NCBI GenBank assembly: GCA_016278485.1
Contig: JADQBT010000007.1
Location: 1 to 64,000, forward strand
DNA: 64,000 nucleotides
Direction of reading: 5' to 3'
DNA from: Halanaerobiales bacterium
GTDB lineage: Bacteria; Bacillota; Halanaerobiia; Halanaerobiales; Halanaerobiaceae
Part shown: piece by piece, positions 3,566 to 44,695 of the stretch
Position numbering within the stretch: the first letter of the stretch is position 1
How the letters are laid out: every line of letters begins with the position of its first letter
The notes under the pieces: model-generated
Told to the model about the DNA's origin: nothing
Databases searched by the model: none
Seen by the model: the letters and a program-made list of their open reading frames with translations, nothing else
Program-made: the position numbers and the translations under genes

Positions 3566-3628
3566 TTCAATTGAAGATGCAGATTTGATCTCAATTTGTT
3601 ATAATAAGTTAGAAGGGGGATGTTTTTT

Positions 3629-4573
3629 ATGAAAAGGACTTTATTAATTACTTTAATAATTATCTTGGTAACCATTTTTATAAGTTTACCTGTAATGGCT
3701 GAAAAGAAAATAACAGTTCAGTCTCCACCAATTCCGGCAGCTATTCCTTTACTCTGGATGGAAGAAGAAGGTTTATTACCAGCTTCAGTTGAATTTAGCG
3801 TCAGACTTTCTTCTGACCATCAAAGAGGAATTTCATTACTTGCTAAAAATGATATTGATCTGCTGGTTACAGGGGCGAATGTAGGAGCTAAAATTTATAA
3901 CAAGGGTATTGGTGCTAAATTGCTTAATGTTAATACCTGGGGTATTGATTACCTTTTAACTTATGGATTCAAAGCAGAAAAATGGTCAGATTTGCGAGGA
4001 AAGTCTTTAGGAGTATTATTGCAAGGAGGACCATTAGATTTTCTGGCCCGCTATTTAATGCAGCAGAATGGAGTTAATCCAGAAGAAGTTAAATTGGTTT
4101 ACCGTCCTCTGCCTGGTGTAGCAAAATATTTTTTAACTGGAAATCTAGATGCTATAATTTTACCTGAACCACTTGTGACAGTAAATTTGAGTAATAGTGA
4201 AAAGATTCATCTTTCCATGGATATCCAGCAGGAATGGAAGAAAATTCACGGTGATGCTAGAATTCCCTTTGTAGGACTTTTTGTTTCAAGTAAATTTGCT
4301 AAAAATAACCCGGAATTTACAAGCATAGTTAATGGATTTTACCAACAGGGTATAGCTTGGGCAAATGAAAATCCAGACAAAGCGGCGCAACTTGCAGCAA
4401 AACATTTTGGGATGCCTGCAGGCGTGATAGAAAAATCACTTAAGCGTGTTAATTTAAATATTTATTCTCAAACAGAGACAAGAAGATTAGTTGACTTATA
4501 CTTTAGTAAAATTCTTAAAATATATCCAGAAATGATTGGTGGAAAAATGCCAGATGAAGCGTTCTATTATTAA
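3629..4573 (+). CDS. ABC transporter substrate-binding protein, NitT/TauT (NMT1/THI5-like) family
   Basis: Periplasmic ligand-binding component of an importer. A signal peptide is visible (KR then a long leucine/isoleucine core ending VMA-EKK), with no lipobox cysteine, which suits a diderm cell. The body has the features of the SsuA/ThiY-like fold: a dipeptide-rich first lobe, GKSLGVLLQGGPLDF at the hinge and a LPEPLV segment. Start 3629 sits nine bases after AGAAGGGGG; the earlier in-frame ATG at 3620 touches that site. It is the first gene of a five-gene block with permease, ATPase, lpdA and lplA. The ligand is unknown; lipoate or a similar cofactor precursor is suggested by the neighbours only. 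Confidence 0.85.
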   Translation: MKRTLLITLIIILVTIFISLPVMAEKKITVQSPPIPAAIPLLWMEEEGLLPASVEFSVRLSSDHQRGISLLAKNDIDLLVTGANVGAKIYNKGIGAKLLNVNTWGIDYLLTYGFKAEKWSDLRGKSLGVLLQGGPLDFLARYLMQQNGVNPEEVKLVYRPLPGVAKYFLTGNLDAIILPEPLVTVNLSNSEKIHLSMDIQQEWKKIHGDARIPFVGLFVSSKFAKNNPEFTSIVNGFYQQGIAWANENPDKAAQLAAKHFGMPAGVIEKSLKRVNLNIYSQTETRRLVDLYFSKILKIYPEMIGGKMPDEAFYY

Positions 4574-5315
4574 ACAGTATTTACCGGCTGTTTTTAGTTT
4601 TTTTCTAATTTATTTAATTTGGAAGACAGCTGCAGTAAATATGCATCCACTTATTTTACCTGGGCCAGAGAAAACGTTTCAGGCTTTAAGGGAGATCTGG
4701 AGAACGGGCGAATTGTTAAGTAATATTTCGATAACTTTAAAGAGAACGATGATTGGTTATGGAAGTTCTGTGGTCGCAGGTATTTTATTTGCCCTACTAT
4801 TAAATAAATCTTCCCTTATAAATAGGGCTTTGCGGCCATTAATTACTGTGATCCAAGCTACTCCACCGGTAGTTTGGGTCGCATTAGCTGTAACCTGGTT
4901 TGGTATTGCAGATGATCTAACGCCGATTTTTTTGATTTTTGTTGTAAGTCTACCTGTCATATTTATCAATATTTATCAGGGATTAAGTGGATTGGATAGT
5001 GAGTTACTGGAAATGGCTATCTTATATCAGAGTTCAGAATGGAAAATTGTAAAAGATATTTACCTGCCAGCATTATTACCTGCTTTTGTTTCTGCATTGA
5101 GTATTGGATTCGCCTTTGCCTGGAAAGCATCAGTCTTTGCTGAATTTATTGGTTCCTCAAGTGGTGTTGGATTTGCATTGAGCATGGCTAATAATAATTT
5201 GCAGACAGCAAAATTATTTGCTTGGACAATTATCTTGATTATTTTTATGCTCTTAGTTGAATATGTATTTCTGGCTTGGTTACAAAAGAGAGTTGGCAGG
5301 TGGAAAGATGAGTGA
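4554..5315 (+). CDS. ABC transporter permease, NitT/TauT family
   Basis: Inner-membrane permease of the importer encoded by this operon. About six membrane segments are visible, and the ATPase-coupling loop reads ILYQSSEWKIVKDIYLPALLPAF, a version of the EAA loop of SsuC/TauC-type permeases. The ATG at 4554, inside the 3' end of the binding protein gene, is preferred because GGTGG lies ten bases upstream and the family starts at this point; this gives a 20-base overlap and suggests translational coupling. Length 253 residues is usual for the family. Confidence 0.88.
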   Translation: MKRSIIKQYLPAVFSFFLIYLIWKTAAVNMHPLILPGPEKTFQALREIWRTGELLSNISITLKRTMIGYGSSVVAGILFALLLNKSSLINRALRPLITVIQATPPVVWVALAVTWFGIADDLTPIFLIFVVSLPVIFINIYQGLSGLDSELLEMAILYQSSEWKIVKDIYLPALLPAFVSALSIGFAFAWKASVFAEFIGSSSGVGFALSMANNNLQTAKLFAWTIILIIFMLLVEYVFLAWLQKRVGRWKDE

Positions 5316-6093
5316 AGATTTACTGAAATTGCAAAATATAAAAAAATCATTTAACAATTATCTGGTTTTAGATGATATATCTATTAATTTAAAAAAAGCT
5401 GAGATAGTATCTTTATTGGGTCCATCAGGAAGTGGAAAGACTACTCTTTTTAGAATTGCTGCTGGTCTGGTTAAACCTGATACAGGACAGGTTATTTTGG
5501 CAAACAAAATTAGGAAAAGTTTTGTTTTTCAAGAACCACGATTATTGCCATGGAAAACTGTTTCAGAAAATTTGAGATTTGTCCAGGATAATTATTCTTG
5601 TTTAGATAGGGCTGAAGAACTTAGAAATAGTCTATTAAAAGCTAGTGGATTGTATGATTTCAAAGAAAGCTTCCCGGCGGAATTATCAGGAGGAATGAAA
5701 CAGCGGCTTGAATTAATAAGAGCCTTGGCAATTAAACCGGATTTAATATTTATGGATGAACCATTTAAATCTGTTGATACAAGAACTAGAATAAATCTAA
5801 TGAAATTATTATCTGTTATCCAGGCTGAAACAAAAATTTCAATTTTAATGATTACCCATAATCCAGAGGAAGCAGTATTACTTGCTGATAGAATATATGT
5901 CCTTTCAGATAAGACTGGGAAAATTATAAAGAAGTTTCAAATTAATCAACCAAGATCCAAGAGAAATATTAGAAATAATGATTTATATGATACCATAAAC
6001 GAAATAAATCAGATATTTAAATCACTGATTGGAGAAATGGATGTAGATCTCACAAAATTATCAGGACATATGCAAAAACAAAGGAGTGAATAA
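5308..6093 (+). CDS. ABC transporter ATP-binding protein, NitT/TauT family
   Basis: Energises the importer. Walker A GPSGSGKTT, Q-loop FQEPRLLPW, signature LSGGMKQRLELIRA, Walker B LIFMDEP and H-loop ITHNPEEA are all intact. The ATG at 5308 follows GGCAGGTGG and overlaps the permease stop by eight bases, so translation is likely coupled. The 261-residue length and the LLPW sequence after the Q-loop are typical of SsuB/TauB-type ATPases. The C-terminal tail after the H-loop is rich in asparagine and isoleucine and is not recognisable. Confidence 0.9.
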   Translation: MSEDLLKLQNIKKSFNNYLVLDDISINLKKAEIVSLLGPSGSGKTTLFRIAAGLVKPDTGQVILANKIRKSFVFQEPRLLPWKTVSENLRFVQDNYSCLDRAEELRNSLLKASGLYDFKESFPAELSGGMKQRLELIRALAIKPDLIFMDEPFKSVDTRTRINLMKLLSVIQAETKISILMITHNPEEAVLLADRIYVLSDKTGKIIKKFQINQPRSKRNIRNNDLYDTINEINQIFKSLIGEMDVDLTKLSGHMQKQRSE

Positions 6094-6094
6094 A

Positions 6095-7510
6095 ATGTCA
6101 ATAAATAAAAAAGAAAAATACCAAATTGCTGTTATTGGAGGTGGACCGGGGGGCTATGTGGCTGCAATTAAAGCTGCTCAACTCGGGGCAGATGTGGTCT
6201 TAATTGAAAAAGATAAAATAGGTGGGACATGCTTAAATTGGGGTTGCATTCCAACTAAGGCTCTTGTCAGATCGGCTGAAGTCTATACTCATCTATTAGA
6301 GGCTGATAACTTTGGTATATCTGCAGAAAATATTTCAGTTGAGATGCCTAAAGTTATTAAGCGTAAGGATAAAATCGTAAATCGTTTAGTTAAAGGTGTT
6401 GAACATTTATTAAAGGCAAATGAAATCGAAGTTATCAAAGCCAAGGCTATGTTAATAGATGAACATAAAATCATGCTTAAACAGGGTGAACAACAGGCAG
6501 AGATAACTGCCGATAATATAATAGTAGCAACAGGTTCACAAAATTCAGAACTTAATATTCCGGGTATATCATTAAGTGGTGTAATTGATAGTAAAGCGGC
6601 CTTAGATCTGGAAGAACTCCCAGAATCATTAGTTGTAGTTGGTGGTGGTGTGATTGGCATGGAGTTTGCTTTTATTTATGCTAATTTAGGGGTAAAAGTC
6701 ACCGTATTAGAATTTCTTGATCAATTGGTACCAGGGGTAGATGAAGAGGTAGCCAAAGAACTTGATCGTTCTGCAAGAAGACGAAAGATAAAAATAAAAA
6801 CAGAAGCTAGAGTTTCTGAGATCAAAGAAACTGATTCAGGTTTGCAGGTAAATTACATATATAAAGAAAAAGAAAAATCTGTAGCGTCTGAGAAAGTTTT
6901 GATTGCAGTAGGTAGAAAACCTTATCATGCAGAGCTTGGATTAGAAAAAATAGGTATAGCTACTGAAGAAAGAAGAGGCGGTATTTTAGTCAATGAAAAA
7001 TTACAAACTAAGCACGATCATATTTATGCGATTGGCGATGTAACAGATAAAATATTATTGGCTCATGTAGCTTCACATCAAGGTATAGTAGCAGCAAATA
7101 ACATTATGGGTAATGAGATGAAAATGGATTATAGTGCTGTTCCTGGTGCAATTTTTACATCACCAGAGATTGGGACTGTTGGTCTAAGTGAAAAAGAAGC
7201 AAAAGCAAAAAATATTGATTATCAGGTTGGTTATTTTCCTTTTGCTGCAAGTGGTAAAGTAATGGCAATGGGGGAAAGAGAAGGTAAGGTAAAGTTAATA
7301 AGTAGAAAAGATAATGATCAGTTAATTGGGGCTGCTTTAATAGGAATCCATGCGTCTGATTTAATAGCTGAACTTACATTGGCTGTCCAACAAAAATTAA
7401 AAGTTGAAGAGTTAGTAGAAACTATTCACGCACATCCAACAACTTCAGAAGTAATATATGAAGCTGCGCTGGATTTAAAAGGAGGGGCAATACATTACAA
7501 TGGTAGATAA
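6095..7510 (+). CDS. lpdA: Dihydrolipoyl dehydrogenase
   Basis: FAD flavoenzyme that reoxidises the dihydrolipoyl group of 2-oxoacid dehydrogenase complexes or the glycine cleavage H protein, passing electrons to NAD+. The FAD motif GGGPGGY, the redox-active disulfide GGTCLNWGCIPTKA, the NAD-binding GGGVIGMEFA, the second FAD motif AIGDVT and the catalytic HAHPTTSE are all present; 471 residues is full length. AAGGAGTG precedes the ATG at 6095, one base after the ATPase stop. No lipoylated E2 or GcvH gene lies in the window. Its place between an importer and lipoate ligase suggests that the operon serves lipoate use rather than a single complex. Confidence 0.95.
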   Translation: MSINKKEKYQIAVIGGGPGGYVAAIKAAQLGADVVLIEKDKIGGTCLNWGCIPTKALVRSAEVYTHLLEADNFGISAENISVEMPKVIKRKDKIVNRLVKGVEHLLKANEIEVIKAKAMLIDEHKIMLKQGEQQAEITADNIIVATGSQNSELNIPGISLSGVIDSKAALDLEELPESLVVVGGGVIGMEFAFIYANLGVKVTVLEFLDQLVPGVDEEVAKELDRSARRRKIKIKTEARVSEIKETDSGLQVNYIYKEKEKSVASEKVLIAVGRKPYHAELGLEKIGIATEERRGGILVNEKLQTKHDHIYAIGDVTDKILLAHVASHQGIVAANNIMGNEMKMDYSAVPGAIFTSPEIGTVGLSEKEAKAKNIDYQVGYFPFAASGKVMAMGEREGKVKLISRKDNDQLIGAALIGIHASDLIAELTLAVQQKLKVEELVETIHAHPTTSEVIYEAALDLKGGAIHYNGR

Positions 7511-8498
7511 ATTAAGAATTATATATTCAGAAGAAGTAAATCCATGGTATAATTTGGCTTTAGAAGAATATTTATTAGATCAAGTTGCTGATGATGAAGT
7601 GATGCTTTATCTTTGGCAAAATGACCGAACAGTGGTAATAGGGCGTAATCAAAATGCCTGGAAAGAATGTCGTTTTAAAAAACTTGAAAAAGAAGATGGA
7701 GGATTTCTTGCACGCAGACTTTCTGGTGGTGGTGCAGTTTACCATGATCTTGGTAACTTTAACTTTACCTTTTTGGCAGATCGGGATCTATATGATTTAG
7801 AAAAACAACTTTCAGTGATATTAGAAGCAGTAAGAGAAATAGGTATAGAAGCAAATTTTTCTGGTAGGAATGATCTACTGGCTGCAGAAAGAAAATTTTC
7901 AGGTAACGCTTTCTATTTTACAGGAGAACGAGCCTATCATCATGGTACTGTACTAGTTGATTCTGATTTTGAAGCATTGGTTGGTTATTTGCAAGTTTCA
8001 GAAGAAAAGATCAAATCAAAAGGAATCGACTCTGTGCGTTCGCGTGTAATTAACTTAAAAGAACTCTCCTCCGAGATAACTGTAGAGGAATTAAAAGAAA
8101 AAGTAGCTGCAAGTTTTCTAAAAGTTTATGGAAATGAAGAAACCGTATTAGATGAAAAATATTATAAACCCTCTCAGATGCCTGAACTCGAACAATTATT
8201 TGAAAAGTATTCATCCTGGGAATGGCGCTATGGGATGACACCAGATTTTGATATAACTTTTTCAAATAGATTTAGCTGGGGAGAAATTCAAATCGGTTTA
8301 AGTTTAAAAGATGGTTATATTAAAAAAGTAGAGGTTTATTCAGATGCTATGGAAGTTGAATTGATAGCTCAAATGAGTACAGTGTTAGAAGAATTACCTT
8401 TTCAAAAGCAGGATATTATTGCAGAAATTACTAAATTAGATCCGGAATCTACACTAATAAACGATATAAATAAATGGTTAACAGAAAAGAAGTTTTAG
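7500..8498 (+). CDS. lplA: Lipoate-protein ligase A
   Basis: Activates free lipoate with ATP and attaches it to a lysine of a lipoyl domain. The catalytic-fold motifs RRLSGGGAVYHD, GRNDLLA and KFSGNAFY are present, followed by HHGTVL, and about 90 residues form the C-terminal accessory domain seen in full-length bacterial LplA (332 residues). The gene overlaps lpdA by 11 bases and has GGAGGGG 12 bases before its ATG. A ligase implies salvage of exogenous lipoate, which is the main reason to suspect that the adjoining ABC importer carries lipoate or a precursor. Confidence 0.93.
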   Translation: MVDKLRIIYSEEVNPWYNLALEEYLLDQVADDEVMLYLWQNDRTVVIGRNQNAWKECRFKKLEKEDGGFLARRLSGGGAVYHDLGNFNFTFLADRDLYDLEKQLSVILEAVREIGIEANFSGRNDLLAAERKFSGNAFYFTGERAYHHGTVLVDSDFEALVGYLQVSEEKIKSKGIDSVRSRVINLKELSSEITVEELKEKVAASFLKVYGNEETVLDEKYYKPSQMPELEQLFEKYSSWEWRYGMTPDFDITFSNRFSWGEIQIGLSLKDGYIKKVEVYSDAMEVELIAQMSTVLEELPFQKQDIIAEITKLDPESTLINDINKWLTEKKF

Positions 8499-8512: not shown

Positions 8513-8541
8513 TTGACAATTTAAACCAAACTATATATAAT
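8513..8541 (+). promoter_or_regulatory. Consensus sigma-A promoter of the encapsulin operon
   Basis: TTGACA (8513-8518) and TATAAT (8536-8541) are both perfect hexamers with a 17-base spacer. It lies in the 89-base gap between lplA and the encapsulated ferritin gene and separates the two transcription units. Confidence 0.8.
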
Positions 8542-8555
8542 GATATTGATAATGA
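8541..8555. promoter_or_regulatory. Fur/PerR-like box at the -10/start site
   Basis: TGATATTGATAATGA matches the 7-1-7 Fur consensus at 12 of 15 positions and covers the end of the -10 element and the likely start site. Occupancy would block the promoter. Confidence 0.4.
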
Positions 8556-8587
8556 TTACTAGTTACTTAAATCTTAAGGAGGTAATT

Positions 8588-8968
8588 ATGAGCGGAGAAT
8601 ATCATGAACCGATTGAAAAGTTAACTCCAGAAGCAATTGAGTATCACAGAATTATTAAAAGTGTAATTGAGGAATTAGAAGCTGTTGATTGGTATAATCA
8701 ACGTGCTGTTGCTAGTGATGACCCACAAGTACAGGCAATTGTTGAACATAATCGTGATGAGGAAATTGAGCATGCTTGTATGGGATTAGAATGGTTACGT
8801 AGAAACAGTCCGGCCTGGAATGAAAACTTAGAAACTTTCCTATTTACACAAGGAGATATTACTAAGTTAGAAGAAGGAGAGGAAGATGAAGCTGTTACGG
8901 AAAATGAAGCAGTAGATCAAGCTGGTTCTGGGTCATTAGGACTTGGTAATATGAGAGGAGAGAGATAA
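8588..8968 (+). CDS. Encapsulated ferritin-like protein (EncFtn)
   Basis: Ferroxidase cargo that loads iron into an encapsulin shell. The short two-helix sequence has E28, E29, E31, W35, Y36, E59 and H62 with the same relative spacing as the residues described for Rhodospirillum rubrum EncFtn (offset by three). An acidic linker (about 94-111) leads to the C-terminal targeting peptide GSGSLGLGNMRG, matching the SLGIGSL-type encapsulation tag. The ATG at 8588 follows AAGGAGG; an upstream in-frame ATG inside the promoter region is ignored. The stop directly abuts the encapsulin start. Length is 126 residues. Confidence 0.93.
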   Translation: MSGEYHEPIEKLTPEAIEYHRIIKSVIEELEAVDWYNQRAVASDDPQVQAIVEHNRDEEIEHACMGLEWLRRNSPAWNENLETFLFTQGDITKLEEGEEDEAVTENEAVDQAGSGSLGLGNMRGER

Positions 8969-9769
8969 ATGAATGTATTAAAACGTTCTCTTGCACCTTT
9001 TCCAAAAGAAGCGTGGGATTTCATTGATGAAGAAGCACGTGAAGTATTAGAATTGAAATTAAAAGGACGCAATATTGTTGATTTTAAAGGACCAAAGGGA
9101 TTAGATTATGCGGCTATTAATACAGGTCGTTTTCTACCAATGAATATAGATGAGGTGGATGGGGTGACTTATGCTAGTCGCGAAGTATTACCCCTGATGG
9201 AAATAAAAGTACCATTTAAGATGAAACTTGCTGAGTTAGAAGCTCTGGCTCGCGGAGCAGAAGATGTGGATACTGATCCATTGCTTGAAGCGGCTGCAAA
9301 ATTAGCTAAAGCTGAAAATGAAGCAATATTGTTTGGTCTAAAAAAAGTAGGAATCAATGGCATAATTGAAGCGGCTGAACAAGAACCAGTAGAAGTTTCT
9401 GTTGGCCCCAATGAGATGATGAATGGCCTTTTAAAAGCAAAAAATAACTTTGATAATGATGGTGTTAAAGGCCCATACCATTTACTAATGGGCCGTGAAA
9501 TGTATTCTTTGCTTTATGAATTAGATGATAGAGGGTATCCATTACGAAGAAAAGTTGAAGAATTAGTTGGGAACGAAGCGATCATGGTACCTGAACTAAA
9601 TGATAAAGGCTTACTTGTTTCGGCCAGAGGTGGAGATTTTGAGATGACAGTTGGCCAAGATATTTCAATTGGTTATAGTAGTCAGGATCAAGATGAGGTC
9701 GAATTATTTTTCCTTGAAACATTTACATTCAGGGTCAATGGTCCAGAAGCAGCAACTGTTCTTAAATAA
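8969..9769 (+). CDS. enc: Encapsulin shell protein, family 1
   Basis: HK97-fold shell protein that self-assembles into a nanocompartment around the EncFtn cargo. The N-terminus (LKRSLAPFPKEAWDFIDEEA) and the C-terminal FFLETFTFRV are typical of Linocin M18/CFP29-type encapsulins, and 266 residues is the usual length. It starts at the base after the EncFtn stop, with GAGAGGAGAG upstream. A strong terminator follows, so the operon is these two genes only. The HK97 fold is shared with phage capsids, but no phage genes are near. Confidence 0.95.
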   Translation: MNVLKRSLAPFPKEAWDFIDEEAREVLELKLKGRNIVDFKGPKGLDYAAINTGRFLPMNIDEVDGVTYASREVLPLMEIKVPFKMKLAELEALARGAEDVDTDPLLEAAAKLAKAENEAILFGLKKVGINGIIEAAEQEPVEVSVGPNEMMNGLLKAKNNFDNDGVKGPYHLLMGREMYSLLYELDDRGYPLRRKVEELVGNEAIMVPELNDKGLLVSARGGDFEMTVGQDISIGYSSQDQDEVELFFLETFTFRVNGPEAATVLK

Positions 9770-9821: not shown

Positions 9822-9914
9822 GTTGATAAATCGAACACTTGTATGTTATAATAAAAAAGATTAATAAAAAGAAGATAAATTTGGCGAAAAGATTTAAAGA
9901 GAGAGAGGATGAAA

Positions 9915-11150
9915 ATGAATATACATAAAAAATTAGCAATTTTGAGTGATGCAGCTAAGTATGATGTATCCTGTTCTTCTAGTGGTAGCAGTCGCAAAGC
10001 TACAGCGGATGGAATTGGAAATGGAGCAGTAAGTGGTATTTGTCATAGTTGGGCAGATGATGGTCGTTGTATCTCTTTATTAAAAATTCTTTTCACCAAT
10101 ACATGTATATATGATTGTCAATATTGTATTAACAGGGTGAGTAATGATTTAGCTAGAACGGCTTTTAAACCTAAAGAAATAGTAGATTTAACAATTGATT
10201 TTTATCGTCGAAATTATATAGAAGGGTTATTTTTGAGTTCAGCAATTCATAAAAATCCCGATTATACAATGGAAAATCTTTTGCAAACAGTCAAGCTTTT
10301 ACGAGAAAAAGAGAAATTTAATGGATATATACATCTTAAAGCTATTCCTGGAGCTGATTATAAGTTAATTAGAGAAGCGGGTCATTATGCCGATCGGATG
10401 AGTGTTAATATTGAATTACCATCAAATAAAAGTTTGCAGAAGTTAGCACCTCAAAAGAAAAAGGATGCTATTTTGGCACCTATGCAGAACATAGGTAATG
10501 GTATTATACAAAACCATGCAGATAGAAAAAAATATAAAAAAGCTCCTAAATTTGTACCAGCTGGTCATAGCACACAATTAATAGTGGGAGCCAGTCCAGA
10601 ACCTGACCTCCAGATTTTACACTTAGCAGAAAGTCTTTATGATAGATTTAACTTGAAGAGGGTTTATTATTCAGCTTATATGCCAGTTGGTAATCATGGT
10701 GGCTTGCCTACAGAAATTACTAAACCTCCACTTCTAAGAGAACATAGACTCTATCAAGCAGATTGGTTACTTAGATTTTATGGGTTTAAAGCAGATGAAT
10801 TATTATCAGCGACTAAAAGTAATTTTGACTTGACGATGGATCCCAAAGCAGATTGGGCAGTACAAAATATGAATCTCTTCCCACTTGAAGTTAATAAAGC
10901 TGATTTTAGAATGTTACTCCGTGTACCAGGAATTGGGCATAAGTCAGCTCGTAGAATCGTGATAGCAAGGAAACAAAGTAAGCTATCACATCTTGATTTA
11001 AAAAAGTTTGGAGTCGTATTAAAAAGAGCCAATTATTTTATAACATGCCAGGGAAAATATCAGGCTGGTATCCCATATCAAGAGAATTTGATTAGAGAAA
11101 AATTAAAACAAACAGATCATGCTTATTATCAGATGAAATTATTTAGTTAA
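9915..11150 (+). CDS. Radical SAM protein, putative DNA modification/repair (TIGR03916-like)
   Basis: Cytosolic radical SAM enzyme; the cluster motif is CIYDCQYC near residues 60-67. The sequence resembles the family annotated as putative DNA modification/repair radical SAM protein, which is usually encoded beside a TIGR03915 protein often fused to uracil-DNA glycosylase. A C-terminal helix-hairpin-helix (VPGIGHKSARRIV) supports DNA contact. The N-terminus CSSSGSSRKATADGIGN is family-like. ATG 9915 is chosen because GAGAGAGG ends six bases before it; ATG 9909 touches that site. The chemistry is not known. It is followed seven bases later by its partner. Confidence 0.85.
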   Translation: MNIHKKLAILSDAAKYDVSCSSSGSSRKATADGIGNGAVSGICHSWADDGRCISLLKILFTNTCIYDCQYCINRVSNDLARTAFKPKEIVDLTIDFYRRNYIEGLFLSSAIHKNPDYTMENLLQTVKLLREKEKFNGYIHLKAIPGADYKLIREAGHYADRMSVNIELPSNKSLQKLAPQKKKDAILAPMQNIGNGIIQNHADRKKYKKAPKFVPAGHSTQLIVGASPEPDLQILHLAESLYDRFNLKRVYYSAYMPVGNHGGLPTEITKPPLLREHRLYQADWLLRFYGFKADELLSATKSNFDLTMDPKADWAVQNMNLFPLEVNKADFRMLLRVPGIGHKSARRIVIARKQSKLSHLDLKKFGVVLKRANYFITCQGKYQAGIPYQENLIREKLKQTDHAYYQMKLFS

Positions 11151-44511: not shown

Positions 44512-44544
44512 ACTATATAAATTAGTAAGAAGACAATAAAAAAA

Positions 44545-44695
44545 TCATCAAGAGTGGCGGAGGGACTGGCCCGTAGATGCCCGGCAACCTACCTGAGATA
44601 AGGTAAGGTGCTAATTCCTGCATTTCCAGATAATAACTGGTTATGGTAGATGAGAGTTGAATTGCAGGCTGCTCTTGATAGAGTGGCTTTTTTTT
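44545..44695 (+). promoter_or_regulatory. SAM-I (S-box) riboswitch with terminator, upstream of metNIQ
   Basis: The highly conserved core is present: CAAGAGTGGCGGAGGGACTG, CCGGCAACC and GGTGCTAATTCC. P1 pairs TCATC (44545-44549) with GATGA (44649-44653), and P4 is CCAG/CTGG around 44626-44640. The expression platform is a terminator stem (44668-44675 with 44680-44687) followed by eight T. An antiterminator can form between TGAGAG (44651-44656) and CTCTTG (44672-44677), excluding both P1 and the terminator. SAM binding should therefore switch the operon off, the usual logic. Confidence 0.97.

Follow-up and report, generated by a model that had tools for sequence, protein, structure and literature searches.

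The window, a 64,000-nucleotide stretch of DNA, carries five co-directional genes (3629-8498) that are a real, conserved unit: an ABC importer of the NitT/TauT type followed by lpdA and lplA. Judging from gene content, we lean slightly towards reading them as one functional unit whose importer would bring in a cofactor, a precursor or an anion connected with the lipoyl and [FeFe]-hydrogenase redox enzymes, the use of that cargo needing no lipoate ligase. For the host itself, lipoate appears the likeliest single ligand, albeit with a probability short of even. Bacterial lipoate uptake is poorly known, and an orphan importer paired with lipoyl genes in one lineage and with hydrogenase genes in another offers, in its SBP, a defined and soluble target. 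The list of candidate ligands for this protein is short, and the pairing could link the uptake of cofactors with the maturation of [FeFe]-hydrogenase.

Organization of the five-gene unit

The ORF coordinates agree with the run of overlapping genes described in the sequence-only reading (Table 1). The SBP and permease genes overlap by 20 bases, the permease and ATPase genes by 8, and the LPD and LplA genes by 11, while at the ATPase/LPD junction the ATG at 6095 leaves a gap of 1 base and a GTG at 6086 would give an overlap of 8. A further in-frame ATG precedes the SBP start, at 3620. The SBP has an N-terminal signal peptide without a lipobox cysteine and matches NMT1 (Pfam, 6.7e-9); the permease matches BPD_transp_1 (Pfam, 7e-29) and the ATPase ABC_tran (Pfam, 2.6e-27), the latter with Walker A (GPSGSGKTT), signature (LSGGMKQR) and Walker B (LIFMDEP) motifs. 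An NMT1-fold SBP, a BPD_transp_1 permease and an ABC ATPase are encoded together, which bears out the earlier assignment to the NitT/TauT type. The SBP, permease and ATPase all stay below the curated SsuABC/TauABC/NrtABC cut-offs (best scores 53 of 163.5, 138 of 295 and 187 of 360 bits, respectively), the SBP value being that of its best weak family match, SsuA_fam. LPD scores 556 bits against TIGR01350 (NCBIfam, cut-off 409) and contains the redox CxxxxC motif (GGTCLNWGCIPT), and LplA scores 364 bits against TIGR00545 (NCBIfam, cut-off 280) with both its catalytic and C-terminal domains present, so the names given to these two genes hold.

From the parts encoded, the five genes would co-express a complete NitT/TauT-type importer, working as a standard periplasmic-binding-protein ABC importer, with LplA and LPD. 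Going by protein families and gene content, LplA would take scavenged lipoate, activate it and load it onto GcvH, and reoxidation of the lipoyl arm in the glycine cleavage system would fall to LPD. The cargo would be a small molecule (cofactor, precursor or anion) with a role around these enzymes and [FeFe]-hydrogenase.

Table 1. Positions of the five-gene unit and of its downstream neighbours in the window
Feature	Positions	Strand	Basis
SBP gene	3629..4573	+	ORF; NMT1/NitT-TauT fold, predicted periplasmic
Permease gene	4554..5315	+	ORF; BPD_transp_1 ABC importer permease
ATPase gene	5308..6093	+	ORF; ABC importer ATPase
lpdA, dihydrolipoyl dehydrogenase (E3 / L-protein)	6095..7510	+	ORF; TIGR01350
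lplA, lipoate-protein ligase with C-terminal domain	7500..8498	+	ORF; TIGR00545
Promoter-like TTGACA-N17-TATAAT, 12/12, after lplA	8513..8541	+	motif scan
Fur-box-like site, 2 mismatches, upstream of encapsulated ferritin	8547..8561	+	motif scan
Encapsulated ferritin and family 1 encapsulin shell	8588..9769	+	ORF, family matches

The encapsulin-ferritin genes are neighbours and probably not part of the unit, since lplA and the ferritin gene are separated by a perfect promoter-like site; the scan found 28 promoter-like sites where 27.6 were expected, and this was the only one matching in full. They look like a separate, iron-regulated unit, because Fur-box-like sites with 1-3 mismatches precede the encapsulated ferritin gene in nine of 12 loci, whereas the best such match before the SBP gene has at least 3 mismatches and usually 5-6. 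Elsewhere in the window, a putative DNA modification/repair radical SAM protein (TIGR03916, 651 bits) is encoded downstream of the encapsulin genes (9909-11150), and a SAM riboswitch (RF00162, 72 bits) lies at 44542-44656.

Lipoate genes of the host genome

The window (G000:C4) belongs to a 2.86 Mb, 96% complete genome of a salt-loving anaerobic bacterium whose nearest named relatives are Halanaerobium. The sequence-only reading had noted that lipoate synthase genes were missing from the stretch itself; a search extended this to the whole of the 96% complete genome, in which no LipA was found. The window's lplA is the single TIGR00545 match in the genome. GcvH is present, in an operon with GcvT, GcvPA and GcvPB (GcvH assigned by family search, the other three by sequence inspection and position). 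With one LplA, a full glycine cleavage operon and no LipA, the host, judged by its canonical genes, should need external lipoate. An alternative, rarer route to lipoate, the LipS1/S2 synthase pathway, has been described (PMC10332631).

Linkage of the importer within Halanaerobiales

Of 38 Halanaerobiales genomes, 26 have an orthologous SBP (44-67% identity). SBP, permease and ATPase stay together in almost every locus examined, and LPD and/or LplA adjoins the importer in most Halanaerobiales, which makes the unit more than chance. The full order SBP-permease-ATPase-LPD-LplA is found in the window and in four further loci (L037, L043, L047 and L050), and ten loci of the window's family have LPD without LplA within a few kilobases. 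Across the order, lplA adjoins the importer in four families, downstream of it in f1, f6 and f7 and upstream in f3 (L044, L052, L053 and L062). Neither gene lies beside the importer in L041, L042, L045, L049 and L054. In the nearest family lplA usually sits at another place in the genome, and in most members the distance from LPD to the importer does not exceed about 2.3 kb, despite about 40% SBP divergence. Several genomes carry cyclopropane fatty acid synthase-like and patatin-like genes as insertions between the ATPase and LPD genes.

Other genes recur at these loci. SufC/SufB-like genes, named from sequence inspection, are often upstream of the importer in f1 and f7. Encapsulated ferritin and encapsulin often lie downstream in Halanaerobiales, and several lineages have encapsulated ferritin, a ferritin-domain gene or a hemerythrin gene in this place. 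A 407-residue protein (cluster c6) that weakly matches part of sulfoquinovose isomerase is encoded near the importer in two families (L031-L040, L044, L048 and L052), either upstream of the SufC/SufB-like genes or behind the ATPase gene.

Hydrogenase-linked orthologues in other Bacillota

The linkage to lipoyl genes recurs across Halanaerobiales, as the sequence-only reading had asked to see, but in about 12 other Bacillota it is hydCBA, not lplA, that stands beside the orthologues. Importers apart from lplA, the finding that the sequence-only reading had named as refuting its proposal, stand outside the order and, within it, in most of the nearest family. Specifically, the orthologous importer directly follows hydCBA in Bacillota bins L079, L082-L089, L091 and L094 and also in L136, the genes encoding HydC-like (2Fe-2S thioredoxin-like), HydB-like (NuoF) and HydA proteins, with some of these contigs stopping before HydC. 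In L082, HydA reaches 820 bits with NF040763, whose cut-off is 765. L093, an Aerophobetes bin, has a HydC-like gene after the importer, and G005 shows both contexts on one strand, in the order HydB-HydA, three genes, LplA, SBP, permease, ATPase. Because the hydCBA-linked SBPs form one group in the SBP tree (support 80/54), next to f3 sequences, this linkage may have arisen once and so may say little about the window. Literature searches returned no paper on a hydrogenase-linked importer of this kind.

Distant homologues (25-36% identity, about 50 Bacillota genomes, 40 loci read) occupy varied neighbourhoods with no repeated partner; one seeming link to GcvH among them falls in a region that also contains Mla and biotin genes. 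At L058:2392-9690 (G015:C5) two genes with large-subunit domains of [FeFe]-hydrogenase are directly followed by another importer of the NMT1 type, a paralogue in the order ATPase-SBP-permease with an SBP identity of about 30%. At L097:4691-5140 an SBP fragment stands where the related locus L091 has hydCBA and the importer; the genome concerned, G052, contains LipA and an LplA-B_cat protein.

Importer presence and lipoate salvage

Lipoate auxotrophy does not appear to be the driver of importer presence. Over 38 Halanaerobiales genomes, most of them drafts, and in tests that ignore phylogeny and draft quality, presence of the importer was not associated with LplA (p 0.15), with LipA loss (p 0.54), with LplA and LipA loss together (p 0.23), with RibH loss (p 0.71) or with ThiC loss (p 1.0).

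The importer is also kept where LplA is missing. The only LplA-B_cat protein, in each case beside LipA, is LipM with the cysteine motif SAACFDAPSWYE in G012, G016 and G018, and a LipB-like protein in G038, G041 and G048; the close relatives G017 and G020 have a LipM-like pattern by TIGR00545 alone. All of these genomes retain the importer. G035 and G036, likewise without an LplA match, were left out of this set, as their contigs end at or within lpdA. In G004 and G009 the importer is present and LipA, LplA and GcvH are all without a match above cut-off, and the single-contig genome G014 has LplA, no GcvH and no LPD at the importer locus. The dN/dS values of the three importer genes are 0.05-0.11 between LplA-less genomes, the same as between LplA-bearing ones, so selection on the importer is strongly purifying in the LplA-less LipM/LipA genomes. 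Because genomes that have no recognised means of attaching free lipoate still keep the importer, its conserved role is independent of lipoate ligase.

Predicted structure of the binding protein

The SBP model (pLDDT 94.7) has a standard NMT1-type fold. Its nearest solved structure is 3hn0 (BDI_1369) from Parabacteroides (Z 30.6, 20% identity), which carries no assigned ligand function, followed by PqqT (Z 28.8), SsuA (28.2) and CmpA (26) and, lower, by ThiY (24.6) and a thiamin-bound SBP (24.1), matches within about 1 Z counting as tied. In this model the NMT1-type fold does not reveal the ligand.

Candidate ligands

The sequence-only reading had proposed an ABC importer for lipoate or lipoyl-peptides. 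For the host this fits: the unit is real, the genome combines LplA and GcvH with missing LipA, and four families have lplA next to the importer, on one side or the other. The SBP also occurs in nine Halanaerobiales genomes with LplA and without LipA, at least six hydCBA-linked genomes show the same combination, and a bacterium without LipA must obtain lipoate somehow. As a general assignment the proposal was not supported, given the hydCBA-linked orthologues, the strong constraint on the importer in LplA-less LipM/LipA genomes, its presence in G004 and G009 without recognised lipoylation genes, the lack of statistical association, and G031, which has LplA and no LipA yet no orthologue. That the importer carries lipoate, octanoate or a lipoyl compound, with the LplA-less genomes retaining it through inertia or to take up some related carboxylate, is a tentative option with the balance tilted against it. 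Lipoyl-H-protein has been linked biochemically to assembly of the H-cluster (PMC11736057), so that a lipoate-type cargo would suit the lplA/lpdA and the hydCBA contexts alike. A wider version, in which a new NitT/TauT-type class supplies lipoate or a related precursor for lipoyl-H-protein, needed in glycine cleavage and in building the H-cluster, is decidedly unlikely; if true, it would explain the importer's two genomic homes. The lipoyl-H-protein bridge does not explain the LplA-less genomes, and G004, G009 and G014 encode an NADH-dependent [FeFe]-hydrogenase (NF040763, above cut-off) with no GcvH above the Pfam cut-off, an observation that matters for how widely the lipoyl-H-protein route to the H-cluster applies. 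Sharing an operon is no proof of a common ligand or pathway, and the ligand could have changed between the two contexts.

Among the rivals, we regard adjacency without shared function, with importer and lipoyl genes on one transcript by chance of gene order, as rather unlikely: the usual placement of lplA elsewhere in the nearest family and the genes inserted between ATPase and LPD agree with it, but the persistence of LPD near diverged importers and the recurrence of lplA on either side speak against it. Improbable too is an iron or sulfur source, a cargo that would match the nearby genes for Fe-S assembly, ferritin and hydrogenase and to which the SufC/SufB-like genes upstream, the ferritin or hemerythrin genes downstream and the weak SsuA (sulfonate) match of the SBP all point. 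Iron was rejected as cargo, however, as the Fur-like sites go with the encapsulin unit, which the perfect promoter-like site parts from the five genes in the window. Among importers of the NitT/TauT type, none is known to us to carry iron. A flavin or flavin precursor, taken up in a RibXY-like manner for LPD (FAD) and HydB (FMN), the flavoproteins of the linked operons, deserves equally little expectation. RibH (lumazine synthase) is missing in all hydCBA-linked Bacillota genomes tested (G038-G046, G048 and G051), but these are kin of one another, LplA is not a flavoprotein, and riboflavin was rejected because the host has RibH, as do most importer-bearing Halanaerobiales. As an observation in its own right, these hydCBA-linked genomes look like riboflavin auxotrophs. 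No FMN or TPP riboswitch was found in scans of the window and 19 related loci. Least probable is a thiamin precursor carried in a ThiXYZ-like manner, which the sequence-only reading had offered as its alternative: the NMT1/THI5 fold takes in ThiY and thiamin-binding SBPs, 2-oxoacid enzymes use thiamin diphosphate and the host genome is without ThiC, yet 13 of 26 importer-bearing Halanaerobiales genomes have ThiC, as against none of the 12 importer-less ones, a pattern that, with the missing riboswitches, speaks against it.

Comparison with known systems

The unit resembles LplA-based lipoate salvage with a glycine cleavage system in having a ligase and an E3 above curated cut-offs in a LipA-minus genome with GcvH, T and P. 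It differs from known LplA salvage in that lplA and lpdA are co-directional and overlapping with an ABC importer, an arrangement for which literature searches yielded no published precedent. As in HydCBA operons (NAD-dependent trimeric [FeFe]-hydrogenase, NF040763) elsewhere in Bacillota, where importer orthologues directly follow hydA, the host has a matching hyd operon (G000:C22), but unlike those it stands without an importer beside it. With the NitT/TauT importers SsuABC, TauABC, NrtABCD, CmpABCD, ThiXYZ and PqqT the window importer shares the three-part architecture and the SBP fold (Z 24-30), whereas it falls below every ligand-specific family cut-off tested. LipT is, in the vitamin-transport literature, an ECF-type lipoate transporter candidate. 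The same name has been used for an oxidoreductase (PMC10332631). No ABC lipoate importer was found in literature searches, in keeping with the earlier view that one would be new. Like the ECF-type candidate, the importer described here stands next to lipoate genes with a proposed role in lipoate uptake; in place of an S-component, its unit has genes for a periplasmic SBP and for a permease of the classical kind.
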